A DNA stretch of 64,000 nt from Gammaproteobacteria bacterium (GTDB taxonomy: Bacteria; Pseudomonadota; Gammaproteobacteria; Xanthomonadales; SZUA-36): assembly GCA_024277815.1 (NCBI GenBank), contig JAJRUM010000019.1:1-64000 (forward strand), read 5' to 3'. The translations under genes and the position numbers were made by a program. The notes under the pieces were generated by a model. The model did not search any database. It saw only the letters and a list, made by a program, of their open reading frames with translations, and was not told where the DNA came from. Every line of letters begins with the position of its first letter. The stretch's first letter is position 1. Positions 35,372 to 62,734 of the stretch are shown here, one piece after another.

Positions 35372-35377
35372 GCCTAC

Positions 35378-41971: not shown

Positions 41972-41977
41972 CAACCA

Positions 41978-43144: not shown

Positions 43145-43203
43145 CGGGCCCTGCATCCTTGGCATAGGCAGTTTGCGCTATGTTTTTCGCTAAAAGAAAA
43201 TGA

Positions 43204-43219: not shown

Positions 43220-43354
43220 AGAGAGGTTTGGTTAGAGAATCCTGCCCAAGTGCATGGCTTTACCTTTCCGATCAGAGGCGCTATTGGTGGGGTTCGGGCG
43301 GCGGTTCCAACAGCCGCTCCGGCAGTTACATAAACTTGAAATGGGATATACGTC

Positions 43355-45751: not shown

Positions 45752-47827
45752 TCATTTACTGGCACTGCGAGTATAAAAATCCTTCAATACGAAGAACGCC
45801 TGCTTCTTTTCTCCAGCTTCAGACACGATCCCTTTGCGATTGTAACCATCCTGGATACCGTTGAGTGGGCGCATCGCTGAACGAAAATCCATCAACAACC
45901 AGGGGGACATGCCTTGCACTTCCGAATTGCGACTCAGCATGTCCACCTGCTTCTCGTAAACCCTGGCCTGGTATTCTTCAGACCAGAGCTTGCCCGGCCC
46001 AAATTTTGATTGATAGCCCTTTTTTGCGCCAGCACCGAACTCGGAAATTATGATGGGCTTGCCAAATACATTGCGAAAGCGGATGTCATGCATGATCCCG
46101 AACATGACCCTGCGCGTGGTCCCCTCATCGACCGGCAACATCCTGCTGAGACCCGCTGAGTAATACCAGCCGAAGTATTCGTTGTAACCGATAATATCCA
46201 CAATATTGCCAAGCTTGTCATCGAGCATCACCTCAATTTCACTATTGAGTACCGCCTCTATATCATCACCAATCAGTTCATCAGCCATTGTTTGTAGCTG
46301 TTGGTGCGTTTGCGGGTCGTTGATTGTCGGATCGGTCAGCATCTCAGCCACCAGGCGCCGGGTCACCGCCGCAAACTCTTTCGCCATATCACCCACCAGC
46401 GCCGAGGCGATCGGCCGACCGCTCTCATCGACCGACCTCGCCAGTGCGGCCAGTTCACCAAGGAAAACCAGGCGCTGTTCCGACTGCGGCATGGTTTCGT
46501 TACCAATCGACCAGATAATCACCGCAGCCCGATTGAGGTCACGATAAATATTTGCTGACAGTTGGGTTTTTGCCAGCGCCAGTGTTCCCTTATTGGTCCA
46601 GTCAATCAGCGACACAATCGGGATCTCACTCCAGACCAGCAGGCCAAGTTCATCGGCAGTACGAACGGTATGCTCGTTGTGCGGGTAATGCGCGAGCCGC
46701 ACAAAATTTCCATTCAGCTCCTTGATCAGCCCAAGCTGGGCTTCGGCATCAGCCCGATCGAACGCAACACCCGGCTTCAGGTATGACGCCTCATGCATGT
46801 TGATGCCACGCAGGAATACAGGCTTACCATTGAGCAGTATCCGGCCGCCGGCAATTTTTATACTGCGGAAGCCAATGCGGTCCGGCACACTGTTACCGGT
46901 GGTAGAAATTTTGACCTCATAGCGCTTCGGGTGCGCTGGCGACCACAGTGCCAGATCCGCCTTGAATACCAGCCTGGCCAGGCCGTTTTGGTCGGTCTCT
47001 GCCACCACCCGAACACCGGCCTCACGGATACTCAATTCAACTTTACGACCTGCTGCAGCAGCACCATCAAGCTGCACCCAGGCCTTCAACGTGCCGGATT
47101 TCAGATCATCCAGCCAGACATGATACTGGCGCACAAACGTTTCCGGGACAGTGACCAGATTGACATCACGCGTGATACCGCTGTATTTGAAAAAGTCGGA
47201 GGTCTTGAGGGTTGGTACGGTCGTATCGTCAAGCCTGGCATCTACCCGCACAACCAGAAAGTTCTCGCCGTCGACCAACGCTGCCGTCGCCTCAACATTG
47301 AATGCTACGTAGCCCCCTTTGTGGGTGGCCAGTGGCTGTCCGTTCAGGTAGATATTGGCAGCGTAATTAACCCCGTCAAAATGGATGAAGTAACGCTTGT
47401 TGCCTTCCTTGACGACAGAAAAACTTCGCTGATACCAGACCACACCGCGGTACCGGAACAGGCGGTCATCCTGTGTATTCCAGTCCCCAGGAACGCGCAA
47501 CTGACGGCGCTCATCAAAGTGGTGCTCAAAATGCTCCATGCCGGTTGTCTGTTCGAGCCTCTCGAAGTAAGTCCCGCCAAAGCGACCAGCTTCGCCAACT
47601 TCATGTTCGTCAACGATGATGTTCCAGTCACCGTTGAGGGAAACAGTCTCACGACCTGCAACGTTCGTCAGCAATGCTGCCGGAGCAGCCAGCAGCGCGC
47701 TGGTTGAAGCAAATATCTCGGCAATATCGCGTGGTTTTTCGGTCTCTTTATCTGCTGCAACGAGCACCCCGCCAGTAATTATTGCCAACAACAGCGGCAA
47801 TATTTGTGCGGTTCTATTTTTCGTCAT
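45752..47827 (-). CDS. Exported GH2 glycoside hydrolase, beta-glucuronidase-like
   Basis: A 691-residue retaining glycosidase with a signal peptide (ILPLLLAIITGGVLVAADK). The GH2 sugar-binding domain (~75-240), Ig-like domain (~245-330) and TIM barrel (~335-690) are in order. The acid/base glutamate is in WSIGNETMPQS (~residue 440) and the nucleophile in IISEFGAG (~596). NEYFGWY, LWSEEYQ and the C-terminal NRKGIVSEAGEKKQAFFVLKDFY resemble E. coli beta-glucuronidase, not beta-galactosidase. It would release glucuronic acid in the periplasm, feeding UxaC. It is divergent from lacI and shares its operator region. Confidence 0.87.
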   Translation of the reverse strand: MTKNRTAQILPLLLAIITGGVLVAADKETEKPRDIAEIFASTSALLAAPAALLTNVAGRETVSLNGDWNIIVDEHEVGEAGRFGGTYFERLEQTTGMEHFEHHFDERRQLRVPGDWNTQDDRLFRYRGVVWYQRSFSVVKEGNKRYFIHFDGVNYAANIYLNGQPLATHKGGYVAFNVEATAALVDGENFLVVRVDARLDDTTVPTLKTSDFFKYSGITRDVNLVTVPETFVRQYHVWLDDLKSGTLKAWVQLDGAAAAGRKVELSIREAGVRVVAETDQNGLARLVFKADLALWSPAHPKRYEVKISTTGNSVPDRIGFRSIKIAGGRILLNGKPVFLRGINMHEASYLKPGVAFDRADAEAQLGLIKELNGNFVRLAHYPHNEHTVRTADELGLLVWSEIPIVSLIDWTNKGTLALAKTQLSANIYRDLNRAAVIIWSIGNETMPQSEQRLVFLGELAALARSVDESGRPIASALVGDMAKEFAAVTRRLVAEMLTDPTINDPQTHQQLQTMADELIGDDIEAVLNSEIEVMLDDKLGNIVDIIGYNEYFGWYYSAGLSRMLPVDEGTTRRVMFGIMHDIRFRNVFGKPIIISEFGAGAKKGYQSKFGPGKLWSEEYQARVYEKQVDMLSRNSEVQGMSPWLLMDFRSAMRPLNGIQDGYNRKGIVSEAGEKKQAFFVLKDFYTRSASK

Positions 47828-47933
47828 AAGTACACCTGGTGGAATCCAGTAGTGGTCAGAAGTGCGCAGTCGCGGAAGCTCTTTCCTGAACCGGCAAAAC
47901 CAGAGAAAACAGCTGACAAAACTCTAGCACCTC

Positions 47934-47963
47934 TTGACACCGGTGTCACCTTCGATGCATAAA
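47934..47963 (+). promoter_or_regulatory. lacI promoter with overlapping operator
   Basis: TTGACA (47934-47939) and CATAAA (47958-47963) are 18 bases apart. The perfect 14-base palindrome TGACACCGGTGTCA (47935-47948) overlaps the -35, so a bound regulator would block this promoter. It lies 107 bases from the divergent GH2 start. Confidence 0.55.
47935..47948. promoter_or_regulatory. LacI-type operator, perfect palindrome
   Basis: TGACACCGGTGTCA has a central CpG-containing CCGG, as LacI-family operators usually do. The same word, with one or four changes, occurs twice in front of uxaC (49076-49089 and 49053-49066). Confidence 0.7.
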
Positions 47964-47993
47964 GGCTCTGTAGAAGTGCCAGGCGGGTGAACG

Positions 47994-49013
47994 GTGAGCA
48001 AACGACCAACTATAAATGATGTTGCAAGGTTATCCGGGGTATCCAAAAAAACGGTCTCCCGGGTAATCAATGACTCGCCAAATGTGACGCAAGATACCCG
48101 CATGAAAGTGCAGGCGATCATTGAGCAGCTTGATTATGCGCCGGACCCACAGGCCCGGGGGCTGGCGTTTCGGCGGTCATTTCTGATTGGCCTGGTATAT
48201 GACAACCCAAACGCGCTGTACATCTCGGATATCCAGGCCGGCATTCTGCGTGCGTGCCGTGGCACCGGTTATGAGTTGATCATGCACCCGGCCAGTTTTT
48301 CCGACCAGCGCCTGGTTGAAGATGTACAGCAATTCATTCAACGTGCGCGTCTGGATGGCATTATTCTGCTGTCACCCATATCCCAACTGGGCAAGCTGGC
48401 GCGTAACCTGAAGCGCCAACACTGCCCCTATGTCCGCATCTCGCCCAAGAAAATTGACAGCTGGCGAAATGTTGTCGTTTCTAACGACCGCAGTGGTGCA
48501 AGCCTGATGACAGACTATTTGATTGGACTAGGCCACCGGGAAATCAGCTTTGTACTCGGGCCCGCATCCAACCTGTCGTCACAGGAAAAGTTTGCAGGCT
48601 TTTGCGAAGCGATGCAGCAACACCGGATTCCCGTACGTAAGCGCTTGCTGGTCCAGGGGGCCAACACTTTTGCCTCTGGCGAGCTTGCCGGCAGTCAGGT
48701 ACTGGGCCGGGCAGTACCTCCCACTGCAATTTTTGCCAGCAACGACATGATGGCGCTGGGTGTACTGAAGACGGCTCAAATGATGGGGGTTGATGTGCCC
48801 CGGGCGCTGTCCGTTGCCGGCTACGATGACAGTGCGCATGCTTCCCTGGTCTGGCCTGACCTGACCACGGTTAACCAGTCGGTGGAATACATGGGAGACC
48901 TGGCCGCACAGAAGCTGATGTCTCAGCTGGCAACCCGGGAGGGAGCGGTACCTGCTGCAACTTCACGGGTACAACCGCAACTGGTTATCCGCCACTCAAC
49001 GGTCGCCATTTAG
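47994..49013 (+). CDS. LacI family repressor of uronate genes
   Basis: A 339-residue regulator with a LacI helix-turn-helix (TINDVARLSGVSKKTVSRVINDSPNVTQDTRMKVQAIIEQLDYAPDPQARGLA) and a periplasmic-binding-protein-like effector domain. It starts at GTG 47994 with AGGCGGG just upstream. It sits between the divergent GH2 gene and the uxaC operon, and the same palindrome is found at both promoters, so it probably represses GH2, itself and the uronate operon until a uronate or a product binds. Confidence 0.9.
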   Translation: MSKRPTINDVARLSGVSKKTVSRVINDSPNVTQDTRMKVQAIIEQLDYAPDPQARGLAFRRSFLIGLVYDNPNALYISDIQAGILRACRGTGYELIMHPASFSDQRLVEDVQQFIQRARLDGIILLSPISQLGKLARNLKRQHCPYVRISPKKIDSWRNVVVSNDRSGASLMTDYLIGLGHREISFVLGPASNLSSQEKFAGFCEAMQQHRIPVRKRLLVQGANTFASGELAGSQVLGRAVPPTAIFASNDMMALGVLKTAQMMGVDVPRALSVAGYDDSAHASLVWPDLTTVNQSVEYMGDLAAQKLMSQLATREGAVPAATSRVQPQLVIRHSTVAI

Positions 49014-49045
49014 AGCCATGGCTTACCGTGTCAGGGTGTGGATTA

Positions 49046-49089
49046 TTGCAGATGACACCGGTTACCGTTACAGTGTGACACCGGTGGCA
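49046..49089 (+). promoter_or_regulatory. Promoter of the uxaC operon with two operator copies
   Basis: TTGCAG (49046-49051), 17 bases, TACAGT (49069-49074) form a plausible promoter. Operator copy A, TGACACCGGTTACC (49053-49066), fills the spacer. Copy B, TGACACCGGTGGCA (49076-49089), matches the palindrome at 13 of 14 positions and covers the start point. This is a classic repression layout. Confidence 0.6.
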
Positions 49090-49121
49090 AACCTTCTTGA
49101 CAGACTGCAGGACCTGGACTT

Positions 49122-50564
49122 GTGAACGACAGACTACTCCACGAAGACCGACTCTTCCCCGCCGACCCAGGCACCAGAAATATTGCACGCGATCTCTACG
49201 CGCAGGTTAGACATCTGCCAATCGTCAGCCCCCATGGACATACCGATCCCCGCTGGTTTGCCGACAATGCAGCATTCAGTAACCCGACCGAGTTGCTGCT
49301 GGCCCCTGATCATTACCTTTACCGCATGCTGTATAGCCAGGGCATCAGCTTGCAACAACTGGCCGTGCCTGACCGAAACGGTGTCACACATACCGATCCA
49401 AGAGCAGCGTGGCATGTGTTTGCCGAGCACTATTACCTGTTCAGAGGTACGCCATCAGCCCTGTGGCTGGAGCACGTATTCGCAGGGTTGTTTGGTATTG
49501 ACCGGGTGCTGAATACAGCCAGTGCTGATTATTACTATGACATCATCGACACTGCACTCCAGCAGGCTGCATTCCGTCCCCGCGCATTGTTCGATGCCTT
49601 CAATATAGAGGTTCTGGCGACCACAGAATCCCCGCTTGATGCACTGGACCATCACCGCACAATCAATAACAGCGGCTGGCAGGGCCGGGTAATAACGACT
49701 TACCGCCCTGACCCGATCGTGGATCCTGAGTACGAGGACTTTGAGGCATCCCTGGCCACCTTCGGATCAATGACCGGCGAAAACACCTCAACCTGGCAGG
49801 GCTATTTGAACGCACACCGAACCCGCAGGGCGTATTTCAGGTCAATGGGGGCAACCGCGACAGACCATGGGCACCCCACCGCCCAGACGGCCGACCTGTC
49901 AGTTAGTGAATGCGAAACCCTGTTTGCAAAAATCCGCAACAGCAACGTGAGCGCCGACGACGCGGAACTGTTCCGTGCCCAGATGCTGACCGAGATGGCA
50001 CGGATGTCCATAGACGACGGCATGGTCATGCAAATTCATGCCGGGGCCCACCGCAACCACAACCGTTGGCTTCTGGCGCATTACGGCCGGGACAAGGGCG
50101 CAGATATTCCGCAGCGCGTCAATTTTGTAGATGGGCTGAAGCCCCTGCTGACCACACTGGGAAATGAGCCGGAACTGTCCATCATCCTCTTCAACCTCGA
50201 TGAATCCACCTACGCCAGAGAGCTCGCACCACTGGCCGGACACTACCCCTGCCTCAAGCTTGGGCCGCCCTGGTGGTTCTTTGACAGCCCCGAAGGTATG
50301 CGGCGCTTTCGCGAGTTAACCACGGAAACAGCCGGCTTTTACAACACGGTTGGTTTCAACGATGACACGCGTGCATTCCTTTCAATACCGGCGCGGCATG
50401 ATGTCGCACGCCGGTCAGACTGCAGTTTTCTGGCCCGCATGGTAGCGGAACACAGGATCCGGCGGGATGAGGCATTGGAGCTTGCAACCGAACTGGCCTA
50501 CAAGCTACCTAAGAAGGCCTATCGTCTTGATCAGCACACCAGCAGCGATGGCAGCCCGGTTTAG
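49122..50564 (+). CDS. uxaC: Glucuronate (uronate) isomerase
   Basis: A 480-residue cytosolic isomerase turning glucuronate into fructuronate (and galacturonate into tagaturonate). The metal site HGHTDPRWFADN near residue 39 and HAGAHRNHN, AHYGRDKGADIPQRV and KLGPPWWFFDSPEGMRRFRE near the C-terminus are characteristic. It starts at GTG 49122 and is the first gene of an 11-gene operon that continues to the GH20 enzyme at 62734. Confidence 0.94.
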   Translation: MNDRLLHEDRLFPADPGTRNIARDLYAQVRHLPIVSPHGHTDPRWFADNAAFSNPTELLLAPDHYLYRMLYSQGISLQQLAVPDRNGVTHTDPRAAWHVFAEHYYLFRGTPSALWLEHVFAGLFGIDRVLNTASADYYYDIIDTALQQAAFRPRALFDAFNIEVLATTESPLDALDHHRTINNSGWQGRVITTYRPDPIVDPEYEDFEASLATFGSMTGENTSTWQGYLNAHRTRRAYFRSMGATATDHGHPTAQTADLSVSECETLFAKIRNSNVSADDAELFRAQMLTEMARMSIDDGMVMQIHAGAHRNHNRWLLAHYGRDKGADIPQRVNFVDGLKPLLTTLGNEPELSIILFNLDESTYARELAPLAGHYPCLKLGPPWWFFDSPEGMRRFRELTTETAGFYNTVGFNDDTRAFLSIPARHDVARRSDCSFLARMVAEHRIRRDEALELATELAYKLPKKAYRLDQHTSSDGSPV

Positions 50565-51531
50565 TCTGCTTATTGGCACCTTGCTGCTGGCAGCAGCCCT
50601 GACGGCGGTCGCCGCGGAACAACGGGTGCTGCGCGTTGCCGACACCCAGCCTGCCGACTACCCGACCGTACAGGCGCTGGTTTACATGGGCGACCTGCTG
50701 GAGCAGTGGAGCGATGGGGAACTCGGCCTGAAAATCTACGCTGGCGGCCAGCTGGGTGAAGAAAAAGACACGCTGGAATTAACTGTTTTCGGCGGTATTG
50801 ATATCAACCGCGTCAACCTCGCACCGCTCAACTCCATCGTCCCTGAAACCACCGTGCTGGCCATGCCGTTTCTGTTCCGCTCCATTGCGCATATGCGGGC
50901 AACCGTTGACGGTCCAATCGGTGATGAAATTCTGGCTGCCTTCGAGCCACATGGTTTGATCGGCCTGGCCTATTACGACTCCGGCGCACGCAGCTTTTAC
51001 AACACCAAGCGGCCCATTCGCACACCGGCTGATCTGGCCGGCATGAAAATCCGCGTGCAAAATTCTGACCTGTTTGTCGAAATGGTCAAAGCATTGGGTG
51101 GCAACCCGACACCCATGGGGTTTGGCCAGGTGTATGAGTCCCTGGTGCTGGGCACTATTGATGGCAGCGAAAACAACTGGCCATCTTACGAATCTACACG
51201 TCACTTTGAAGCCGCCCCGTTCTACACCCTGACGCAACACACCATGACGCCCGAGGTGCTGGTCATGTCGAGGCATCGCTGGGAGCGCCTGTCCGGCGAA
51301 CAACAAAGCCTGGTCCGGCGCGCGGCAAAAGCTTCGGTGGCGCATATGCGCGTGTTGTGGGAACAGCGGGTCGTGCGCTCACGACAGGTGGTGCTGGCCG
51401 CAGGGGTGGAGGTGATCGAAGATCTTGATAAGCGGCCGTTTATGCAAGCGGTTGCACCGCTGTATGACATGTTTCTGACCGATGCCCGTCTGCGAGATCT
51501 GGTCAGACGAATCCGGGCCGTGCAGGAATGA
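50548..51531 (+). CDS. TRAP transporter substrate-binding protein, set 1
   Basis: A ~327-residue DctP-family periplasmic receptor. The track begins inside uxaC; ATG 50548, 17 bases before the uxaC stop, gives a proper signal peptide (MAARFSLLIGTLLLAAALTAVAAEQ). The family core is present: GGQLGEEKDTLELTVFGGIDINRVN, ADLAGMKIRVQNSDLFVEMVKALGGNPTPMGFGQVYESLVLGTIDGSENNWPSY (with the Arg that binds carboxylates). It delivers a sugar acid, likely a uronate, to DctQM of set 1. Confidence 0.9.
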   Translation: MAARFSLLIGTLLLAAALTAVAAEQRVLRVADTQPADYPTVQALVYMGDLLEQWSDGELGLKIYAGGQLGEEKDTLELTVFGGIDINRVNLAPLNSIVPETTVLAMPFLFRSIAHMRATVDGPIGDEILAAFEPHGLIGLAYYDSGARSFYNTKRPIRTPADLAGMKIRVQNSDLFVEMVKALGGNPTPMGFGQVYESLVLGTIDGSENNWPSYESTRHFEAAPFYTLTQHTMTPEVLVMSRHRWERLSGEQQSLVRRAAKASVAHMRVLWEQRVVRSRQVVLAAGVEVIEDLDKRPFMQAVAPLYDMFLTDARLRDLVRRIRAVQE

Positions 51532-52031
51532 GGTTTCGCAAGCAAATCCTGGCGCTGTCCCGTGCAACCGGGGTGATCGAAAACATCGCCATGGGCATCG
51601 CGGCAGGTGGCCTGGTGCTCATGACCATCATTATTGGCTGGCAGGTCTTCGGGCGTTACGCACTCAATGAGAGCCCGGCGTGGTCCGAGTCACTGGCTCT
51701 TATCCTGATGCTGTATTACGTGTTGCTGGCGGCAGCGGTTGGCGTGCGTCAGGGGTTCCACCTCGGCATGCGTATTGTGGTTGATAACCTGCCCCCGGCA
51801 GCGCGCAAATGGGCCGCTGTTCTTGCCCTGCTGCTGGTGGCTGTGTTTGGCGGCATGATGACGCTCAACGGTATGTACCTGGTTGAGTACACCGCTACCC
51901 ACCTGGTTCCAACACTGGGGATTTCACGCGCAGTTGCCTACTGGCCTTTTTCAATTGCCGGTTTCCTGATGGTGCTGTTTGCGGTCGAAAGAATCGCCCA
52001 TGCCCTGCTCAGCGAAACGGAGATCCCGTAG
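51528..52031 (+). CDS. TRAP transporter small permease (DctQ type), set 1
   Basis: A 167-residue, four-TM subunit with the family pattern IIGWQVFGRYALNESPAWSESLALILMLYYVLLAAAVGVRQGFHLG. It overlaps the receptor gene by four bases (ATGA) and dctM by one base. Confidence 0.9.
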   Translation: MRFRKQILALSRATGVIENIAMGIAAGGLVLMTIIIGWQVFGRYALNESPAWSESLALILMLYYVLLAAAVGVRQGFHLGMRIVVDNLPPAARKWAAVLALLLVAVFGGMMTLNGMYLVEYTATHLVPTLGISRAVAYWPFSIAGFLMVLFAVERIAHALLSETEIP

Positions 52032-53308
52032 TGGAACTGTTCATCCTGTTCGGAGCCTTCATCGTGTTGCTGCTACTGGGCGTTCCGGTTGCCTTTTGCC
52101 TTGGGCTGTCATCAATCGCGACCCTGATGTACCTGGACATCCCTCCCATCGTGGCATTTCAACGCATGGCCGCCGGCATGAACATCTTCGCCCTGATGGC
52201 AATACCCTTTTTCATCTACGCGGGTGAATTGATGAACCAGTCGGGCATAGCCGGTCGCCTGATTCAGTTTGCAAACGCGCTTCTGGGCCGGGTACAGGGC
52301 GGGCTCGGCCAGGTAAATGTGGCTTCCAGCATGATGTTTGGTGCCATTTCCGGCTCAGCGGTTGCCAGCGCATCAGCCATGGGCTCAGCACTTATTCCGA
52401 CCATGAAGAGCGAAGGCTATGATGTGGACTACGCAGTAAACGTAACTGTTACCGCCTCAACCACCGGCCTGCTGATACCACCTTCACACAACATGATCAT
52501 CTACTCGGTAGCGGCAGGCGGTGGCGTCTCAATTGCGGCGCTGTTCCTGGCAGGCCTGATACCCGGCCTGCTGCTGGGTGCCGGTTTGATGGTAGCCGCC
52601 TACTGGGTCGCGCTGCGGCGCGGCTATCCCGCCGGCCGCTTCCCGGGTTGGCGACAGGTTTTCATGTATTTTATTGCCGCCATCCCCGGCCTGCTGTCCG
52701 CGTTGATCATTGTCGGTGGCATCCTGTCCGGAGTGTTCACCGCCACCGAATCATCCGCCATTGCCGTGATTTACACCTGGCTGGTCGCCACCTTTGTCTA
52801 CCGCAGCCTCGGATGGAAGGGCTTTGTCACCGCCAGCATCAATGCGGTGAAAACGACCTCACTGGTGTTGCTGATCATTGGCGCGGCGGCGGCTTTCGGG
52901 TGGGTCCTGGCGCTCACCGAGGTACCGTTGCGACTGTCTGAGCTGTTACTCTCTATTTCTGATAACCCCATAATTATTCTGTTGATTATCAATGTTATAC
53001 TGTTAATGCTCGGTACCTTCATGGACATGTCCCCATTGATTGTAATCACCACTCCCATCTTTCTGCCTGTGGTCACCAATCTGGGCATGGACCCGGTACA
53101 GTTTGGCATCATGTTAATACTCAACCTTGGACTTGGGCTGGTAACGCCACCCGTTGGCACAGCATTATTTGTCGGTTGCAGCGTGGGTGGGATTCGCATC
53201 GAAGACACCATTCGTTCGATCCTGCCTTTTTATGTGCCGTTTCTGCTGGTGCTGCTGGCGGTAACATTTATCCCCTCCGTGTCATTGTTTCTCACCAGGC
53301 TACTGTAG
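52031..53308 (+). CDS. TRAP transporter large permease (DctM type), set 1
   Basis: A 425-residue, ~12-TM Na+-coupled permease subunit. Typical segments: LFGAFIVLLLLGVPVAFCLGLSS, GAISGSAVASASAMGSALIPTMKSEGYDVDYA, IPPSHNMIIYS and PPVGTALFVGC. The start is GTG 52031, overlapping the dctQ stop by one base (TAGTG). It works with set 1 DctP and DctQ. Confidence 0.93.
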   Translation: MELFILFGAFIVLLLLGVPVAFCLGLSSIATLMYLDIPPIVAFQRMAAGMNIFALMAIPFFIYAGELMNQSGIAGRLIQFANALLGRVQGGLGQVNVASSMMFGAISGSAVASASAMGSALIPTMKSEGYDVDYAVNVTVTASTTGLLIPPSHNMIIYSVAAGGGVSIAALFLAGLIPGLLLGAGLMVAAYWVALRRGYPAGRFPGWRQVFMYFIAAIPGLLSALIIVGGILSGVFTATESSAIAVIYTWLVATFVYRSLGWKGFVTASINAVKTTSLVLLIIGAAAAFGWVLALTEVPLRLSELLLSISDNPIIILLIINVILLMLGTFMDMSPLIVITTPIFLPVVTNLGMDPVQFGIMLILNLGLGLVTPPVGTALFVGCSVGGIRIEDTIRSILPFYVPFLLVLLAVTFIPSVSLFLTRLL

Positions 53309-54810
53309 TGACTAACGCGCCGAACGCCATTCAGGTTCACAACAGCGACAACGTAGCCGTGGCGCTGCAGGACATCACCGCCGGTGAACATTTGCTATTG
53401 CCGGGGCACAGCGTGCTTGCGACCGGGCACATCCAGGCGGGACACAAGATCGCGCTGGAGGAAATCGCCACCGGCGCCTCGTTGCGAAAATTTGGAGCGC
53501 CGTTTGGCCGGGCAACCCGCACGATTGCAGCCGGGGCACAGGTGCATACGCACAACGTAAGCACCTCGTTATCCGATACCGAAGCCTATACCTTTGAAGC
53601 CCCTGACCCGGCAGACTTTTCACTTCTCCAGGAACCTGCAGCGCCGCGCTTTAAAGGTTACCGCCGCAGCGATGGGCGGGTCGCCACCCGCAATGAAATC
53701 TGGATAATCAGTACCGTGGGCTGCGTCAGTCGCACTGTGGATCGAATCGCCCGCCTGGCGCAGCAGCGCTTCAGCGGCCAGGTTGACGGGGTACATGCAT
53801 TCAGCCACCCCTATGGGTGTTCACAACTGGGCGATGACCTGGAGTATACGCAGAAAATTCTGGCCGGCCTGATCAACCACCCCAATGCCGGCGGGGTACT
53901 CGTGGTTGGCCTCGGCTGCGAAACCAACCAGGTTACTTCCTTATTGCAGCATGTTGCGGGCAGGACAAGCGACCGGATTCGTTACTTCGATGCCCAGGCC
54001 GTTACTGATGAGGTTGATGTCGGCATCAAAGCCATTGAACAGCTTGTACAAGTAGCAAAGCACGACCAGCGAACCACCTGCTCCCTGAGTGATCTGTCGG
54101 TTGGTTTGAAGTGCGGCGGTTCAGATGGTTTCAGCGGACTCACAGCGAACCCGTTAGTCGGAAATGCCTGTGACCAGGTTACACAGGCCGGTGGGCGCGC
54201 CATACTCAGCGAAATACCGGAAATGTTTGGCGCGGAACGCCAGTTGATGCGCCGCTGCACCAACAAAACAGTTTTTGCACGTCTGGTCAGCGTCGTCAAT
54301 GACTTCAAGCAGTACTTCATTGGCCATGACCAGCCGATATATGAAAACCCGTCACCTGGAAATATCGCCGGCGGCATTACCACGCTTGAGGAAAAGTCCC
54401 TGGGTGCGATACAGAAAGGCGGGGCTGCCCCGGTCAGTGCCGTGCTGCGCTATGGGGAACCTGCTCTGGAGCCCGGCCTGTCCATACTCGAGGCACCTGG
54501 CAATGACGGTGTGTCGAGCACCGCAATGGTGGCCAGCGGTGCGACCCTGTTGCTGTTTACCACCGGACGCGGTACGCCTCTGGGTTTTCCTGTTCCGACC
54601 ATCAAGATTGCTTCCAATTCTGATATTGCGCGCAACAAACCACACTGGATTGATTTCGATGCGGGCAGGCTGCTGCAAGGAGCCCGTATGGAAGCCATCA
54701 CGGCTGAGTTGATGACAAAGATCATCGACACGGCCTCTGGCGCAAGTACCTGCAATGAGACCAATGACGAACGTGAGATCGCAATATGGAAAAAGGGGGT
54801 CACGCTCTGA
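53308..54810 (+). CDS. uxaA: Altronate dehydratase
   Basis: A 500-residue iron-dependent dehydratase converting altronate to KDG. The N-terminal SAF domain (~1-90: VALQDITAGEHLLLPG...) is joined to the catalytic domain with GYRRSDGRVATRNEIWIISTVGCVSRT, HPYGCSQLGDD, VGLGCETNQ and LKCGGSDGFSGLTANP. The track extends it into dctM; GTG 53308, sharing one base with the dctM stop, is the natural start. UxaB, the enzyme that makes altronate, is not in the window. Confidence 0.9.
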   Translation: MTNAPNAIQVHNSDNVAVALQDITAGEHLLLPGHSVLATGHIQAGHKIALEEIATGASLRKFGAPFGRATRTIAAGAQVHTHNVSTSLSDTEAYTFEAPDPADFSLLQEPAAPRFKGYRRSDGRVATRNEIWIISTVGCVSRTVDRIARLAQQRFSGQVDGVHAFSHPYGCSQLGDDLEYTQKILAGLINHPNAGGVLVVGLGCETNQVTSLLQHVAGRTSDRIRYFDAQAVTDEVDVGIKAIEQLVQVAKHDQRTTCSLSDLSVGLKCGGSDGFSGLTANPLVGNACDQVTQAGGRAILSEIPEMFGAERQLMRRCTNKTVFARLVSVVNDFKQYFIGHDQPIYENPSPGNIAGGITTLEEKSLGAIQKGGAAPVSAVLRYGEPALEPGLSILEAPGNDGVSSTAMVASGATLLLFTTGRGTPLGFPVPTIKIASNSDIARNKPHWIDFDAGRLLQGARMEAITAELMTKIIDTASGASTCNETNDEREIAIWKKGVTL

Positions 54811-56300
54811 TGCGTCAGCGAGCAACTCCGACCGTGCTCTCAAACCGCTCCATCGGGAAAATAGCGGCAACTACTGCCGTACCGGGCTACGACCGGCAAG
54901 CTTGCAGCACTGGCATCGTGCATCTGGGGCCAGGTGCTTTCCACCGGGCCCATCAGGCCGTTTATATCGACAATGTGCTCGCCCAGGGTGAAACCAGCTG
55001 GGCCTTGTGTGGCGTCTCATTGCGCAGCAGTCAAGTGCGTGACTCGCTGATGGCACAAAACAACCTGTACACGCTGGCGATACTGGATGAACAGGTACAG
55101 TTCAGGGTGATTGGCGCCATCCGTGAACTGCTTACTGCCAGCCAGCAGGCCCCCGTGGTCATTGAACGGCTTAGCGCCGCTACCACCAGGGTCGTGACCC
55201 TTACCATTACAGAAAAGGGCTACTGCCTGACACCAGCGGGTGACCTGGACGTCGCGCACCCGGACATCCAGCAAGACCTTGCCAGGCCTGAAGCACCCGT
55301 TTCCGCCGTTGGGTTTATTGTTGAGGGACTGCGCCGCAGGCGGCAAGCCGGCATTACTTCTTTCAGTGTGTTGAGCTGTGACAACCTGGCCGACAATGGC
55401 CGGCGGATGGCGCATGCCGTCCAACAATATGCCAGCCTGCTGGATCCGGCCCTGGCGCGCTGGATTGACAGCGAAACCTGCTTTCCCAACTCCATGGTAG
55501 ACAGCATCACACCGGCCACCGATGACGCACTGCGCCCACGGGTTGAATGGGCCACCGGGCTGGCAGATGCGTGGCCGGTGCAAAGGGAGGCTTTCTCACA
55601 ATGGGTGGTTGAAGATCAATTTAGCTGTGGCAGGCCCAGCTGGCAGAACGCCGGCGTTACCATGACCAGTGATGTCGCCCCGTTCGAGCAGGCCAAACTG
55701 CGCCTGCTGAATGGAGCACACTCGACCATGGCATACCTTGGCACCCTGTATGGTTACGCAACCATCAACGACGTGGTGGCTGACAAGGAATTCATGCAGC
55801 ATGTCAAACTGCTGATGCACGAAGAAATCAGCCCCAGCCTCGGTGACATGCCTTTTGATATCAACGGCTATATCGATTCCATCCTGTCGCGATTTGCCAA
55901 TCCGGCCATTGCTCACCAGTTGTCACAAATTGCCTGGGATGGGTCGCAAAAACTGCCGTTTCGCATACTCGATACCGTGCGGGATAACCTGCTGGCGGGG
56001 CAGGGTATTGAGCGACTATGCTTTACTATTGCTGCTTGGTTTCACTTTATCAGGCACCGAGTGCACAACGAAGTCGGGATTGTGGATCCCCTGGCTGGCG
56101 TGCTGGCAGAGGCTGGCCATGGGTGTACCGGCAATGCGGCGAGCGATGTTGCCCGGTTTTCACTGCTGGAGACGGTTTTTGATGCCGCGCTTTACAGCGA
56201 ACCCCGCTTTCATCGTTCGCTTTGCGCTGCCTATGAGAAGATTGAAACACGGGGCGCGGCAGGTGCCGTTAAGTACCTGCTTTCCAGGCCGCAGAAATAA
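54810..56300 (+). CDS. uxuB: Fructuronate reductase (mannonate oxidoreductase)
   Basis: A ~496-residue NAD-dependent enzyme of the long-chain mannitol dehydrogenase family, reducing fructuronate to mannonate. It shows GIVHLGPGAFHRAHQAVYIDNVL (NAD region), VTLTITEKGYCL, FPNSMVDSITPAT, QWVVEDQF and KLRLLNGAHSTMAYLG with the catalytic lysine. The match to E. coli UxuB is close; UxaB proteins differ at the N-terminus. ATG 54810 shares one base with the uxaA stop (TGATG); ATG 54786 is an alternative. Confidence 0.88.
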   Translation: MRQRATPTVLSNRSIGKIAATTAVPGYDRQACSTGIVHLGPGAFHRAHQAVYIDNVLAQGETSWALCGVSLRSSQVRDSLMAQNNLYTLAILDEQVQFRVIGAIRELLTASQQAPVVIERLSAATTRVVTLTITEKGYCLTPAGDLDVAHPDIQQDLARPEAPVSAVGFIVEGLRRRRQAGITSFSVLSCDNLADNGRRMAHAVQQYASLLDPALARWIDSETCFPNSMVDSITPATDDALRPRVEWATGLADAWPVQREAFSQWVVEDQFSCGRPSWQNAGVTMTSDVAPFEQAKLRLLNGAHSTMAYLGTLYGYATINDVVADKEFMQHVKLLMHEEISPSLGDMPFDINGYIDSILSRFANPAIAHQLSQIAWDGSQKLPFRILDTVRDNLLAGQGIERLCFTIAAWFHFIRHRVHNEVGIVDPLAGVLAEAGHGCTGNAASDVARFSLLETVFDAALYSEPRFHRSLCAAYEKIETRGAAGAVKYLLSRPQK

Positions 56301-56339
56301 TGTATGAATACAAATTGACAGAATTTAAGGAGTGGTTTT

Positions 56340-57539
56340 ATGCGTGAAGCGTGGCGGTGGTTTGGGCCGGATGACCCGGTAAGCCTGGAGGACATTCGGC
56401 AAACGGGTGCAGCAGATGTTGTCACTGCGCTCTATCACATCCCGGCCCACGACGTCTGGCCGGTTGATGAAATCAAAGCTTTGCCAAGCCTGATTGAGGA
56501 AGTGCCGGATACACGTTCAGCCCTCAAGTGGTCGGTTGTCGAGAGCATACCTGTGCATGAGTACATCAAGCTCGGCAAACCCGGTCGCGACCGACATATC
56601 TCTGCTTTTATCGACAGCATGAAGAACCTGGCCGCCTGCAACATTCGCACCATCTGTTACAACTTCATGCCCGTCATTGACGCGACCCGGACAAACCTGG
56701 CGTACGAACGCCCTTCCGGCGCCACGGCGTTGCGCTTCGATCAGGATCAGTACACTGTTTTCGATCTTTTCATCCTCGACCGGGAGGGTGCCAGAAAAGA
56801 CTATTCGTACAAGGAAATTGATGCCGCCCGGGCCGCTTTCCGACAAATGACGGAAGCAGAAAAAACCACGCTGGCGAGGAATATCACTGAAGGTATGCCG
56901 GGGAAAATGACCGCTGCCTACGGCGTCGAGGAGTTCCGGCAGGCCCTCGCCCAGTACAAGGGCATCAACAAGGCCGCCCTGCGGAAGAACCTCTATCACT
57001 TCCTCGGCCAGGTACTGCCGGAAGCTGAAAAGCTGAACGTAAAACTGGCCATTCACCCTGACGACCCGCCACGGGATCTGTTTGGCCTGCCAAGAATCAT
57101 TTGTACAGCCGATGACCTGGAAACCCTGTTCGCTGAACTGCCAAGTGCTTCCAATGGTGTCACGCTGTGCGTCGGCACCTTTGGCAGCAGGCCGGATAAC
57201 GATCTTCCGGCGATGGTGAAGCAGTTTGGACCACGCATACACTTTGCGCATTTGCGGGGTGTTAAGCGCGACCTGGACGACCCCCGGTCATTCTATGAAG
57301 CCTCCCACCTGGAGGGCGATGTCGACATGATCAGCATCATCCGATGCCTGCTGCATGAAGAAAGTATGCGCAAGCCCGGTTCCGGTGCCATGGATATCCC
57401 CATTCGACCTGACCACGGGCACCAGATGATGGATGACCTGGACCGGAAGGTTAACCCCGGTTACTCCTGCATTGGCCGTTTGCGCGGGCTGGCAGAAATA
57501 CGCGGGGTGATCAGAACCCTGGAAAAGCTGGGTGTTTGA
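56340..57539 (+). CDS. uxuA: Mannonate dehydratase
   Basis: A 399-residue dehydratase of the UxuA family, forming KDG from mannonate. Motifs: WRWFGPDDPVSLEDIRQTGAADVVTALYHIP at the N-terminus, LAIHPDDPPRDLFGLPRI, IHFAHLRGVKRD, FYEASHLEGDVDM and IPIRPDHGHQMMDD, supplying the metal ligands. It has a good ribosome site (AAGGAG). With UxaC and UxuB it completes glucuronate-to-KDG conversion inside this operon. Confidence 0.95.
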   Translation: MREAWRWFGPDDPVSLEDIRQTGAADVVTALYHIPAHDVWPVDEIKALPSLIEEVPDTRSALKWSVVESIPVHEYIKLGKPGRDRHISAFIDSMKNLAACNIRTICYNFMPVIDATRTNLAYERPSGATALRFDQDQYTVFDLFILDREGARKDYSYKEIDAARAAFRQMTEAEKTTLARNITEGMPGKMTAAYGVEEFRQALAQYKGINKAALRKNLYHFLGQVLPEAEKLNVKLAIHPDDPPRDLFGLPRIICTADDLETLFAELPSASNGVTLCVGTFGSRPDNDLPAMVKQFGPRIHFAHLRGVKRDLDDPRSFYEASHLEGDVDMISIIRCLLHEESMRKPGSGAMDIPIRPDHGHQMMDDLDRKVNPGYSCIGRLRGLAEIRGVIRTLEKLGV

Positions 57540-58542
57540 TATCCGGCACAACCTGCCCCTGAGAATCGCGATCATTGTCGTGCTGGTAACGACCTCTTTC
57601 GTCGTGCTGCGATACTCAGCGCCCCACAGGCTGGTGCCAGGTGAAAAAATCACCTTGCGGCTGGCCGAAGCATTGCCCGAACACAATCCCGTTACCATTG
57701 CGATGCGCCGCTTCGCCGCGCTGGTCAATGAAAAAACCAACGGCGCTGTGACGGTCAGAATTCATTCCAGTGCGCAGTTCGGCCAGGAGTCTGAAGCCAT
57801 CGAACAGGTTCAGCTTGGTATCATTGATTTCACCCGCGTGAACTCCGTTGTAGTTGCCAACGTCAGCCCCTCCATGGGGGTTTTTACACTACCGTACATC
57901 TTCAGGAATTTTGAACACAAGTACAAAGTACTGGATGGCAAGCCTGGCGACCAGGTGCGTGCTGACCTGAACAAAGTCGGGTTGATCGGCTTTGACTATA
58001 TGGATGCGGGTTCCCGTTGCTTCTATACCCGCGACAAGGAGATTAAAAGTCTGGCCGACCTGAAGGGTTTGAAAATTCGTGTGCAACCCTCCCATATCAC
58101 CATCCGCATGATTGAACTGATGGGCGCGATCCCCACCCCCATGAACTACGGGGAGGTCTACTCAGCACTTTCAACTGGGATCGTTGATGGTGCCGAAAAC
58201 GACTATGTCAGTTACTCAACATCGGGACATTACGAGGTTGCGCCTTTTTATGTTGAAGACAACCACCTGAGCCCACCAGCCATTCTGCTGATGAACCAGG
58301 ACAGGTTCAATTCGCTGGCCGCTGAGTATCAACAAGCCATTCAGGAAGCAGCGCAGGAAGCGGCCTATTACGAGCGGGAGATCATGACGCAGGCCAACCT
58401 GGAGGCCAAACAGCTAATGCTGGCCGCCAAGGTTTCCATTTCCAGCATTGACAGCGCCCCTTTCCGGGCTGCTGTTGAGCCCATTTACGCTGAGTTCCCG
58501 GCCTATGCCAGCCTGATTCAACAGATTGATTCAACAGAATAA
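57532..58542 (+). CDS. TRAP transporter substrate-binding protein, set 2
   Basis: A 336-residue DctP-family receptor starting at GTG 57532, overlapping uxuA by eight bases. The N-terminus (IAIIVVLVTTSFVVLRYSA) looks more like an uncleaved anchor than a clean signal peptide. The core is typical: AQFGQESEAIEQVQLGIIDFTRVN, LADLKGLKIRVQPSHITIRMIELMGAIPTPMNYGEVYSALSTGIVDGAENDYVSY. It differs clearly from the set 1 receptor and so may bind a different uronate or oligomer. Confidence 0.9.
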   Translation: MFDIRHNLPLRIAIIVVLVTTSFVVLRYSAPHRLVPGEKITLRLAEALPEHNPVTIAMRRFAALVNEKTNGAVTVRIHSSAQFGQESEAIEQVQLGIIDFTRVNSVVVANVSPSMGVFTLPYIFRNFEHKYKVLDGKPGDQVRADLNKVGLIGFDYMDAGSRCFYTRDKEIKSLADLKGLKIRVQPSHITIRMIELMGAIPTPMNYGEVYSALSTGIVDGAENDYVSYSTSGHYEVAPFYVEDNHLSPPAILLMNQDRFNSLAAEYQQAIQEAAQEAAYYEREIMTQANLEAKQLMLAAKVSISSIDSAPFRAAVEPIYAEFPAYASLIQQIDSTE

Positions 58543-58543
58543 T

Positions 58544-59050
58544 ATGAAAAATCTCACCACGCAGTTTTTTGAATATATTAACCGTGCTGCAGAGTGGGTT
58601 TGTTACTTACTGCTGGCCACGTTGGTGGGTATTATTGTGCTGCAGGTTTTCCTGCGCTATGTACTGAAATCACCCGTCAGTTGGTCTGAAGAAGTGGCGC
58701 TGCTACTGCTGGTGTGGTTTGCCATGCTGGCGGTTGCGATCGCCGTTTACCGACACACCCACATGGCCATCTCCGTCGTCTGGGACCGCCTTTCCCCGCC
58801 AGGCCAGCATGTGTTGAACATTATCGTTGAATTCCTGGTGTTGGCTTTTGCGCTCAACGTCAGCATTAATGCGGGCATGTTAATCGACATTGTGGGTGAC
58901 CAGGCGCTTTCTGCCTCGGGCTTTCCCAAATCCTGGCTTTATCTTCCGCTCCAGGTTGGCGGCATACTGATGGCCCTGAATTCCATCGGTAACCTGCTGC
59001 TGGATCACTTTCCCGGTAAGGATGCCGGCACCTCGGGTTTCGAGGTTTAA
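58544..59050 (+). CDS. TRAP transporter small permease (DctQ type), set 2
   Basis: A 168-residue four-TM subunit (LATLVGIIVLQVFLRYVLKSPVSWSEEVALLLLVWFAMLAVAIAVYRHTHM). ATG 58544 directly follows the dctP stop; the track's earlier ATG (58526) lies inside dctP. It precedes dctM set 2 by two bases. Confidence 0.88.
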   Translation: MKNLTTQFFEYINRAAEWVCYLLLATLVGIIVLQVFLRYVLKSPVSWSEEVALLLLVWFAMLAVAIAVYRHTHMAISVVWDRLSPPGQHVLNIIVEFLVLAFALNVSINAGMLIDIVGDQALSASGFPKSWLYLPLQVGGILMALNSIGNLLLDHFPGKDAGTSGFEV

Positions 59051-59052
59051 CG

Positions 59053-60345
59053 ATGGACCAGCAAACCATTGCCACGACCCTGTTGCTCGGCCTGTTTCTG
59101 CTGCTGATGTTTATCCGCGTGCCCATTGCTTTCGCACTTGGTCTGGCCTCGCTGGCCACTGCCTTTTACCTGGATATTCCAACCCTGGTCATTGCCCACA
59201 GGATGGTCAACGGCCTGAACAGCTTTACCTTCCTGGCGGTACCCTTTTTTATCCTTGCCGGGCAACTAATGGCCGAGGGTGGTATCTCCGACCGCCTGGT
59301 GCGCTTTGCCGACACACTGGTTGGCCGCATGCGGGGTGGCCTGGCGCAGGCCAATATTGTTTCCAGCACCATGTTTGGCGGGATTTCCGGTTCTTCTGTT
59401 GCCGATATTGCCTCGGTCGGTTCTTTCCTGATCCCGTCGATGACCAAGCGTGGTTACCGGCCCAGCTACGCGGTTGCCGTCACCATTACTTCATCGGTGC
59501 AGGGCGTGTTGATACCCCCAAGCCAGAACATGATCTATTTCGCCCTCGCCGCCGGCGGCCTGTCGCTTGAAAAACTGTTTTTAGCCGGCTATATCCCGGG
59601 GTTAATACTGGGTGGTTCGCTGATGCTGTTGTGCTGGGTTCTGGCCGTACGCCAGGGACACCCTGCGGGCGAAAAGTACGCCTTCAAAGAGGCCATTGGC
59701 GTAGCGCTGGAGGCCTCCATCGGCCTGTTCACCGTGGTGATCATTATCGGTGGCATCGTGCTGGGGATTTTCACTGCCACTGAATCAGCAGCGGTCGCGA
59801 CGGTCTATGCGCTGATTGTTGCGCGATTCATATATCGCAGCATGCCGATGAGCAAGCTTTTGGCTGTGCTTAAAAAATCCCTCAATACACTGGCAACCGT
59901 AGTCGCCATTATCATGACTTCGTCGGGATTTGCGTTCCTGTTGTCCTACCTTGAGATTCCGGCGGCACTGGCCAAGCTGATATTTTCAATCTCCTCTGAC
60001 CCGATCATCGCCATGCTGGCGATCAATGTGCTGCTGCTGGGTTTGGGGATGCTCATGGACATGGGCATACTCATACTCCTGCTCACCCCGATGCTGCTGC
60101 CTATCGCGGTTCAGCTCGGCATAGACCCCATTCATTTCGGCGTCATCATGATGATCAACCTCGGTATCGGCCTGTGCACCCCGCCAGTCGGCACGTCACT
60201 GATGATTGGCTGTGCAATCGGCGAAGTGAGCATTGAAAAAACCATCAAGGATCTGGTGCCATTTTATGTGATCATGCTGGCAGTATTGATGCTGGTAACA
60301 TTTATTCCTCAATTGACCTTATGGCTCCCCAGCCTGCTTGACTAG
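59053..60345 (+). CDS. TRAP transporter large permease (DctM type), set 2
   Basis: A 430-residue, ~12-TM permease with LLLMFIRVPIAFALGLASLA, GGISGSSVADIASVGSFLIPSMTKRGYRPSYAVAVTITSS, IPPSQNMIYFA and TPPVGTSLMIGCAIGEV. It completes the second TRAP set. It ends seven bases before the GH20 start. Confidence 0.93.
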   Translation: MDQQTIATTLLLGLFLLLMFIRVPIAFALGLASLATAFYLDIPTLVIAHRMVNGLNSFTFLAVPFFILAGQLMAEGGISDRLVRFADTLVGRMRGGLAQANIVSSTMFGGISGSSVADIASVGSFLIPSMTKRGYRPSYAVAVTITSSVQGVLIPPSQNMIYFALAAGGLSLEKLFLAGYIPGLILGGSLMLLCWVLAVRQGHPAGEKYAFKEAIGVALEASIGLFTVVIIIGGIVLGIFTATESAAVATVYALIVARFIYRSMPMSKLLAVLKKSLNTLATVVAIIMTSSGFAFLLSYLEIPAALAKLIFSISSDPIIAMLAINVLLLGLGMLMDMGILILLLTPMLLPIAVQLGIDPIHFGVIMMINLGIGLCTPPVGTSLMIGCAIGEVSIEKTIKDLVPFYVIMLAVLMLVTFIPQLTLWLPSLLD

Positions 60346-60352
60346 AGAACCG

Positions 60353-62734
60353 ATGATACTGATAAAGCGCACAGGCATACCGTGTCAACACCTCGCCCTG
60401 CTGGCAGCGTTGCTGGGTATTGTATTGAGCCTGCTTGTTGCGGCCTCGGCCCATGCCGGTCCTTCGGGCCAGCCAACGGCGGTTGGCCAGTACGGGATTA
60501 TTCCTGTACCCGCCTACCTGCAGGCAAGGCCGGGCAAATTTACGCTGACGCGCGACACACAACTATTGATCAACAAACAGCAGGCACGTGACGTTGCCGA
60601 TTACTTGCAGGCGCTGATTGTTCCTGCAACCGGCTTCAAGCTGGAAATACTTGCTGCTGAAACGCCACAGGAAAACTCCATCAGCCTGCTGATTACCGAT
60701 GGCTTCGACTCTCCGGAAGCCTATGAACTCAGCGTGGACTCCCGGCAAGTCATCATCAGCGCAGCCAGTTCTAAGGGCTTGTTTTATGGTGTCCAGAGTT
60801 TGCGCCAGATGTTGCCTGCAGAAATCGAAAGCGCTTACCCCTTCAATACCGTGCAATGGCAACTTGCCGGCGTACTGATCAGAGACCAGCCAGCGTATCC
60901 TTACCGCGGCATGCACCTGGATGTAAGCCGCCATTTCTTTTCCGCAGCGTTCATCAAGCGTTACATTGATTTTCTGGCACTGCACAAAATGAATTATTTC
61001 CATTGGCACCTGACCGATGACCAGGGCTGGCGAATCGAGATCAAGAAGTACCCCCGGCTGACTTCCGTCGGCAGCACGCGTCCACGCACCATGCTTTCTC
61101 ACCCCTATGACAGGGAGCCCCGCTTTTATGACAATACGGCTGTCAGCGGCTTCTACACCCAGCAGGATATCCGTGAAATTGTCGAGTACGCCCGGCGGCG
61201 GCAGGTGACCATCGTTCCTGAAATAGATGTTCCGGGACACACGTCCGCGCTATTGGCAGCCTACCCGGAGTACGCCTGCGTTAAAAAAGATTTTGAAGTT
61301 AAAACAGAGTTTCACATTTTTCGTGACGTTATGTGCCCCACGGAAGCGAGCTTTGCTTTTCTGCAAGATGTGTTTGCTGAAGTCGCTGCCCTGTTCCCCG
61401 GGCCCTATATTCATATTGGCGGGGACGAGGTCATCAAGGACCAGTGGAAAACCTGTGAAAGCTGCACGGCGCTGATGCGCGCCGAAGGTCTGGAAAACTA
61501 TCAGCAACTGCAAAGCTACTTTGTGCACCGGGTCGAGGACATCATCAACGGCCTCGGCAAAAAGATGGCTGGCTGGGAAGAGATTCTTGAGGGCGGTATC
61601 AACCCCAGCGCTACAATTACCACCTGGCTGATGCCCGGACAGGCCATCAATGCAGTGAAGGCAGGCCACGATGTCATTATCGGCGCCAGTGAACGCCTGT
61701 ACTTCAACCAGTTTGAGTCCCTGTCGCTGGACGAGCCGATGTCATCCAGCTGGCAGCCACCGATATCACTGCGGGATGTGTACGAACTTGAACCCCTGCC
61801 CGAAGGACTGACACCGGCACAGGCCAAACATATCATCGGCGCTCAAGGCCATGTCTGGGGTAACTTTATCAAGACACCGGCACAAGTAGAGAATGCTGCG
61901 TTGCCGCGCATGAGCGCGCTTTCGGAGGCTCTCTGGTCCTCACCGGACAACCGTGCATGGCCGAACTTTCTGTTGCGACTGGAGCGCTTCTACCAACGCC
62001 TGGACCGACTGGGAATCAATGCATCAAGAGCCGTTTATAAAGTTTCCGCTGAACACCAGTTGATGGGTACAGACATGGAGTTGCGCCTGCACGTTGAGGG
62101 GGCTGAGACCATCATTCGCTATACGCTGGACGGATCTGAGCCCAATACCCATTCCGCACGCTATAAGGAACCACTGATACTCAAGCAGGACACTGTCGTC
62201 AGGGCGGCAGGGCAGAACCCGCGAAGCGGTACACTCTACGGCGCATTCAGGCTGTCATTCATAAAGCACAAGGCGCTGGGTAAAAAACTGGTTTTTAGCC
62301 ACCCGCCAAAGACCAACTACAAGCCTGGCCCGCTGGTGACAATCCTCGATGGCGCACTTGCCCATGACCGGATTTTCCACCCGACGGAGTGGGCCGAGTT
62401 CAATGACGGTGACCTGGACGCAGTCATAGATTTTGCCAGCAAAACACGCCTGCGGTACGTTGGGTTTGGTTTTGATGCCGGCCAGTACCGGCGCCTGAAC
62501 CGGCCACAGGGCGTACAAGTCCTGGTCTCAGATGACGCTGAACACTGGCGAACGGTGGCCTCGGTAAATGAAGAAGAAATCAGGCTGAGCAGCCCTTTTC
62601 TGGGTATTGATTTTCCCGCTGTGGAGGCTCGCTACCTCAGGGTGATCGCAAAAAACAGGCGGCAGGTGTATAGCACCCGCCTGGAAAAAACGCTGCCGGT
62701 TTCAATTTTTATTGATGAAATAATCGTACGCTGA
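60353..62734 (+). CDS. Exported GH20 beta-N-acetylhexosaminidase
   Basis: A ~793-residue exo-glycosidase with a signal peptide (LLAALLGIVLSLLVAASAHAG). An N-terminal GH20b domain (~35-165) precedes the GH20 barrel (~170-500): YRGMHLDVSRHFF, HWHLTDDQGWRIEIKKYP, VPEIDVPGHTSA and HIGGDEV with the catalytic Asp-Glu pair near residue 365. A beta-rich C-terminal region (IIRYTLDGSEPNTHSARYKEPLIL...) ends in an F5/8-type-like domain. It removes terminal GlcNAc or GalNAc. ATG 60353 is preferred over the track's TTG. It is the last gene of the uronate operon. Confidence 0.92.
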   Translation: MILIKRTGIPCQHLALLAALLGIVLSLLVAASAHAGPSGQPTAVGQYGIIPVPAYLQARPGKFTLTRDTQLLINKQQARDVADYLQALIVPATGFKLEILAAETPQENSISLLITDGFDSPEAYELSVDSRQVIISAASSKGLFYGVQSLRQMLPAEIESAYPFNTVQWQLAGVLIRDQPAYPYRGMHLDVSRHFFSAAFIKRYIDFLALHKMNYFHWHLTDDQGWRIEIKKYPRLTSVGSTRPRTMLSHPYDREPRFYDNTAVSGFYTQQDIREIVEYARRRQVTIVPEIDVPGHTSALLAAYPEYACVKKDFEVKTEFHIFRDVMCPTEASFAFLQDVFAEVAALFPGPYIHIGGDEVIKDQWKTCESCTALMRAEGLENYQQLQSYFVHRVEDIINGLGKKMAGWEEILEGGINPSATITTWLMPGQAINAVKAGHDVIIGASERLYFNQFESLSLDEPMSSSWQPPISLRDVYELEPLPEGLTPAQAKHIIGAQGHVWGNFIKTPAQVENAALPRMSALSEALWSSPDNRAWPNFLLRLERFYQRLDRLGINASRAVYKVSAEHQLMGTDMELRLHVEGAETIIRYTLDGSEPNTHSARYKEPLILKQDTVVRAAGQNPRSGTLYGAFRLSFIKHKALGKKLVFSHPPKTNYKPGPLVTILDGALAHDRIFHPTEWAEFNDGDLDAVIDFASKTRLRYVGFGFDAGQYRRLNRPQGVQVLVSDDAEHWRTVASVNEEEIRLSSPFLGIDFPAVEARYLRVIAKNRRQVYSTRLEKTLPVSIFIDEIIVR

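Follow-up and report, generated by a model that had tools for sequence, protein, structure and literature searches.

Can a marine bacterium strip hexuronate and N-acetylhexosamine from a glycan with exo-hydrolases and no lyase, and do the two sugars come from one glycan? This question is raised by a locus within the window (the whole 64,000-nucleotide stretch analysed here), which is part of a 2.98-Mb assembly that is 93.8% complete. Genes were identified from the ORF listing and from Pfam and NCBIfam scans. On the plus strand, 37950-45649 carries a LuxR regulator, a DUF3604/CehA-McbA-type metallohydrolase, nagB, nagA and a TonB receptor. A GH2 gene follows on the minus strand (45752-47827), and the plus strand resumes at 47994-62734 with lacI, uxaC, dctPQM1, uxaA, uxuB, uxuA, dctPQM2 and a GH20 gene, after which comes glnE. 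By its GC content, the region does not stand out as foreign. A relative from another genus, Dive100_bin2.37 (JAJRRA010000011.1; G012), served for comparison. The features are listed below.

29837-30865 and 30871-31560, minus strand: KDG kinase and KDPG aldolase, the final steps of the uronate route
37950-39083, plus strand: LuxR-family regulator heading the DUF3604-nagBA run (PF00196; 79% identity in G012, at the same place)
39194-41188, plus strand: exported DUF3604/CehA-McbA-type (PHP-like) metallohydrolase (PF12228, 51 bits over a short stretch, cut-off 20.4; NF038032, 62 bits, below the cut-off of 80)
41231-41971, plus strand: divergent nagB-like glucosamine-6-phosphate deaminase (PF01182; TIGR00502, 138 bits against a cut-off of 237; best PDB match 2bkv, NagB)
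41978-43144, plus strand: divergent nagA-like N-acetylglucosamine-6-phosphate deacetylase (TIGR00221, 167 bits against a cut-off of 226; best PDB match 2vhl; HLEGP motif)
43355-45649, plus strand: TonB-dependent outer-membrane receptor (PF00593/PF07715; 81% orthologue in the uxaC run of G012)
45752-47827, minus strand: GH2 exo-beta-hexuronidase of the glucuronidase/galacturonidase type (PF02836/PF02837/PF00703; signal peptide by inspection)
47935-47948, no strand: perfect palindromic LacI-type predicted operator TGACACCGGTGTCA, between GH2 and lacI
47994-49013, plus strand: LacI-family repressor (PF00356/PF13377)
49053-49089, no strand: two more predicted operator copies, TGACACCGGTTACC and TGACACCGGTGGCA, just upstream of uxaC
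49122-50564, plus strand: uxaC, hexuronate isomerase (PRK02925, 564 bits, cut-off 387)
50548-51531, 51528-52031 and 52031-53308, plus strand: dctP1, dctQ1 and dctM1 of TRAP transporter 1, hexuronate type (profile matches)
53308-54810, plus strand: uxaA-type member of the altronate/galactarate dehydratase family (PF20629, PF04295, PF08666; PDB 6u7l, 3k3s)
54810-56300, plus strand: uxuB-like hexuronate reductase of the mannitol-dehydrogenase family (PF01232/PF08125)
56340-57539, plus strand: uxuA, mannonate dehydratase (TIGR00695, 466 bits, cut-off 200)
57532-58542, 58526-59050 and 59053-60345, plus strand: dctP2, dctQ2 and dctM2 of TRAP transporter 2 (profile matches)
60338-62734, plus strand: GH20 beta-N-acetylhexosaminidase (PF00728, 374 bits; PF02838, PF13290, PF00754)

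The locus seems to be an uncommon combination of known parts. The genes named in the earlier note (GH2, GH20, UxaC, UxuB-like, UxuA, two TRAP sets, TonB receptor, nagB and nagA) were all found open and in place by Pfam and NCBIfam matches; absent from its list were uxaA, the genes for KDG kinase and KDPG aldolase, and the DUF3604 gene, which precedes nagBA.

The catalytic residues of the GH2 protein are intact (acid/base E444, nucleophile E596) and invariant across 34 sequences, and so is the carboxylate motif N663-R664-K665 in the same 34 homologues. This NxK motif binds the C6 carboxylate and marks GH2 hexuronidases (PMC12243196). An AlphaFold model (pLDDT 90.9) was closest to the solved structures of BuGUS-1, the beta-galacturonidase AqGalA with a galacturonide, another Bacteroides glucuronidase and a hybrid glucuronidase/galacturonidase from Fusicatenibacter. 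Since the closest solved enzymes thus include a glucuronidase, a galacturonidase and a hybrid, sequence and model make the assignment as a hexuronidase secure at the level of the family, and glucuronidase specificity only likely. Between barrel strands, a helical insertion (residues 478-533; window 46229-46396) adds about 50 residues; marine proteobacterial homologues retain it at varying length, Bacteroidota ones have a short form, and it could shape the aglycone site.

The GH20 protein contains the catalytic D-E pair in HIGGDEV (HxGGDE motif), matches a hexosaminidase of known structure over its full length (6q63), and ends in CHB_HEX_C and F5/8-like domains. No second GH20 was found in the same genome at E<=1e-60. 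As the earlier note had proposed, both exo-enzymes are probably exported: the GH2 and GH20 N-termini each have a hydrophobic leader segment, judged by eye as a signal peptide.

The uxaC-TRAP1-uxaA-uxuB-uxuA-TRAP2-GH20 run comprises 11 genes (49122-62734). Intergenic gaps are only -17 to +39 bases and the majority are overlaps, so a single transcript is likely. The GH20 start lies 7 bases past dctM2 or, with a TTG start, overlaps it by 8 bases, and the placement of GH20 within the uronate operon proposed earlier thus holds by sequence. The best NCBIfam subfamily for the uxuB-like reductase is fructuronate reductase, with a score below the cut-off; the protein is not UxaB-like. The uronate route is completed by KDG kinase and KDPG aldolase, which are also encoded in the window. 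The nearest solved proteins to DctP1 and DctP2 are 4n8y and 4ovr, respectively, whose ligands we take to be of the hexuronate type. Hexuronate-type TRAP binding proteins are among the nearest solved relatives of both; 4mhf is a glucuronate/galacturonate-binding TRAP protein (PMC7660916).

Other runs were observed in the window. At 29837-37740, the KDG kinase and KDPG aldolase genes share a run with genes for dihydroxyacetone kinase, a lipoyl-domain alpha/beta-hydrolase and a two-part E1 dehydrogenase and with an MFS gene; in G012 this same run, without the MFS gene, continues from the uxaC operon. Another run (8382-13498) combines a proton-pumping pyrophosphatase with an M28 peptidase and a phosphofructokinase, which suggests a pyrophosphate-linked glycolysis step.

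On the N-acetylhexosamine side, the identification of nagBA was borne out by homology to NagB and NagA, with both proteins scoring under the NCBIfam equivalog cut-offs. Several searches for a kinase were made. No ROK kinase and no GlcNAc-type BadF kinase was found in the same genome, where the BadF-family matches resemble activators of CoA dehydratases. A search of 2.1 of the 3.0 Mb gave no convincing glc-type PTS EIIB motif. The BadF match on contig C16 was rejected as a GlcNAc kinase because it adjoins a 2-hydroxyacyl-CoA dehydratase-like gene. As a separate observation, BcrA/BcrD-BadF-type activator ATPases (L156 1432-3499 on G000 contig C16, and G000 contig C51), one of them beside a 2-hydroxyacyl-CoA dehydratase/benzoyl-CoA-reductase-like subunit, occur in an otherwise marine-heterotroph-like genome. 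The locus has no obvious HexNAc importer apart from the MFS gene (36538-37740), a candidate for this role, which adjoins luxR in the window and lies near luxR in G012.

The DUF3604 protein keeps metal-ligand-like motifs (H-x-H, TDH and DDH). A sequence search found no solved relative, a structure model was set aside (model confidence 37.5), and no role for the family was found in the literature searched. Metallohydrolases of this family recur near or beside GH2 hexuronidase genes in marine relatives (window 39194-41188; L047 7980-9872; L072 840-2459), and in Pseudohalioglobus lutimaris the DUF3604 gene directly abuts the GH2 hexuronidase gene.

The predicted operators stand on both sides of lacI, at the promoters of the GH2 and uxaC units, and LacI would be the repressor. 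TGACACCGGTGTCA overlaps the -35 element of a predicted GH2 promoter; promoter-like matches overall were no commoner than chance. At no more than one mismatch, the operator gave only two matches in 1.47 Mb of related loci, both upstream of a GH2-adjacent lacI; it occupies the same place in G012 (perfect) and stands next to lacI in Pseudomaricurvus (1 mismatch). In the window, no copy was found before DUF3604-nagBA or the TonB receptor. A wider LacI regulon was rejected, as the near-matches in the same genome lie in or near genes without visible relation to the locus.

The earlier note had stated that the locus has neither a polysaccharide lyase nor an unsaturated glucuronyl hydrolase, and this holds genome-wide for the families tested. 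GH88/GH105 (PF07470) is absent from the 93.8% complete genome, with positive controls, as are PL8 (PF02278) and heparinase II/III (PF07940), for which the searches were positive elsewhere. The saturated-uronate route fits hydrolysis rather than lysis. PF00884 had six matches in the same genome, two of them with the formylglycine motif of sulfatases and both away from the locus. No endo-acting enzyme was identified, which leaves attack on long chains unexplained; the locus therefore suits imported oligosaccharides rather than polymers.

The distribution of the genes was compared among relatives. Among 39 genomes of the family, only G012 has a close GH2 (75%), with a more distant one in G008. 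At E<=1e-100, two of the order's 399 genomes have DctP2, one of them being the window's own, and the sampled genus mates have a distant GH2 or none, a single distant GH20 and no DctP2 orthologue. Because these genus mates are without close homologues of GH2, GH20 or DctP2, the gene set seems, from these comparisons, to travel as a unit. G012 retains every part of the window locus in a different order, with a sulfatase added. One block, on one strand, holds kdgK, KDPG aldolase, Dak, E2/E1 genes, the TonB receptor, the sulfatase, uxuB, uxaA, TRAP1, uxaC and lacI; GH2 is divergent, and then a single run holds luxR-DUF3604-nagB-nagA-uxuA-TRAP2-GH20. The set was kept despite this rearrangement, which argues for joint function. 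The G012 sulfatase is lipoprotein-like with a CAPSR motif and lies between uxuB and the TonB receptor (L027 2446-3876; contig C11 22446-23876); no close counterpart was found at the window locus or in the searched parts of the window's own genome.

Only these two genomes have the whole combination. At 79 other GH2 loci, nagBA was found nowhere except in G012, so the GH2 enzyme usually works without nagBA. GH20 was likewise not found near the other 79 GH2 genes, a weak result, as the loci reach 10 kb and the GH20-GH2 distance is 12-13 kb in both positive genomes. A GH2-TRAP-uxu/uxa cassette without nagBA occurs in Pseudohalioglobus, Pseudomaricurvus, UBA1847 and others (Cellvibrionales/Halieaceae-type loci); the hexuronide cassette is thus the usual arrangement, and the HexNAc genes are the addition. 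The GH2-TRAP cassette of Pseudomaricurvus alcaniphilus has a lipoprotein-like GH3 gene on each side (L046 3169-5664 and 15126-17270), which points to another glycan there.

The reading that we prefer, with a probability of about one half, is a LacI-controlled scavenging locus for oligosaccharides with terminal beta-hexuronate and beta-HexNAc, which would be trimmed by exo-enzymes in the periplasm and feed a saturated-uronate pathway. The TonB receptor would import glycan fragments into the periplasm, where the exported GH2 and GH20 enzymes would presumably act, releasing hexuronate and HexNAc by plain hydrolysis. The hexuronate would feed the saturated-uronate route through transporters whose substrates are predicted, and NagA and NagB would process the HexNAc once it is phosphorylated, a step for which no kinase was identified. 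Both sugars would derive from one glycan. The earlier proposal that the locus ties the two sugars together stands in part: the linkage of uronate genes, nagBA, GH2 and GH20 is kept in a second genus, and nagBA and the TonB receptor are without an operator. Its further proposal of a specific GlcA-HexNAc polymer was not upheld, as the GH2 enzyme groups with glucuronidase, galacturonidase and hybrid alike, uxaA lies in the operon, and neither an endo-enzyme nor a GlcNAc kinase was found.

The locus could instead combine two independent scavenging functions side by side, a beta-hexuronide cassette (GH2, TRAP1 and uxa/uxu) and a GH20-nagBA pair for unrelated glycans. We regard this as unlikely but worth serious attention. 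It would agree with the cassettes that are without nagBA, with the position of GH20 and nagBA outside the LacI-marked operon in G012, and with accessory genes that differ from host to host (the GH3 pair and DUF3604). On the other side, uxuA-TRAP2-GH20 is united in both genomes, joining nagBA in G012 and uxuB in the window; the window GH20 lies in the uxaC transcript predicted from the gaps; and no GH18 is there to give GH20 a role in chitin use. Such a role, in which GH20 and nagBA would serve chitin oligosaccharides, was itself considered, since chitin breakdown usually ends with this pairing. It was rejected as highly improbable: GH18 chitinase is absent from both the window's own genome and G012, with positive controls, and the GH20 gene belongs to the predicted uronate transcript. 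An unlikely variant, compatible with the scavenging reading that we prefer, is that the GH2 enzyme acts mainly as a beta-galacturonidase or a GlcA/GalA hybrid, and that the locus serves a marine glycan with beta-GalA. Among the kinds of solved enzyme, AqGalA (7vqm) ranks second in both sequence and structure, with the FsGUS hybrid (6ncz) next, and uxaA of the galacturonate branch lies inside the LacI operon. However, a beta-glucuronidase (6d1n, 6d89) ranks first in both, the reductase resembles fructuronate reductase rather than UxaB, uxuA is also present, and the GH2 protein has D-F-F from D211 where both solved neighbours have D-W-W.

Animal lysosomes trim glycosaminoglycans with a GH2 beta-glucuronidase and a GH20 hexosaminidase, and also have an endo-hyaluronidase and dedicated sulfatases. 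The earlier note had proposed alternate exo-trimming of chains such as hyaluronan or unsulfated chondroitin; a lysosome-like route of this kind for hyaluronan or chondroitin chains themselves we consider improbable. The exo-hydrolase pair is the same, no tested lyase or GH88 is in the genome, and the G012 sulfatase has, among its nearest solved relatives, some named N-acetylgalactosamine-6-sulfatase. The window locus, in contrast, has no identified endo-enzyme, no recognised GalNAc-specific genes, no GlcNAc kinase and no sulfatase, the two formylglycine-type ones of the genome lying elsewhere; PL8, GH88 and a PTS are all present in a marine hyaluronan locus described before (PMC8222515). The broader idea of a bacterial lysosome-like glycosaminoglycan pathway, in which alternating periplasmic GH2 and GH20 exo-hydrolases (joined by a sulfatase in G012) and a saturated-uronate TRAP/Uxu route form one mobile set in marine Gammaproteobacteria, is speculative and rather unlikely. 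Marine glycosaminoglycan-like metabolism is annotated largely from lyases and GH88. Should loci with hydrolases alone act on this material, their hosts are being overlooked, and the saturated products would feed a different uronate pathway. With its predicted operator and small gene set, the locus is a clear test case.

Among known systems, the hyaluronan locus of Vibrio alginolyticus LWW-9 uses PL8 lyases, GH88 and a PTS, and sends unsaturated uronate through the DHU/KDG route (PMC8222515). Both loci cluster enzymes, sugar uptake and uronate catabolism, with uronate and GlcNAc as end products (PMC8222515), whereas the window locus pairs exo-hydrolases with TRAP uptake and handles saturated uronate through UxaC/UxuB/UxuA. 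The NxK-type GH2 beta-hexuronidases BuGUS-1 (6d1n), AqGalA (7vqm) and FsGUS (6ncz) share the fold, catalytic pair and NxK motif of the window enzyme at about 33-38% identity; the window enzyme differs from them by its insertion of about 50 residues at 478-533. Hexuronate TRAP genes adjoin uxuAB/uxaC in clusters such as those of STM3169 orthologues (PMC7660916); the window locus has the same TRAP and uxuAB/uxaC core and adds a second TRAP transporter, GH2, GH20 and nagBA.
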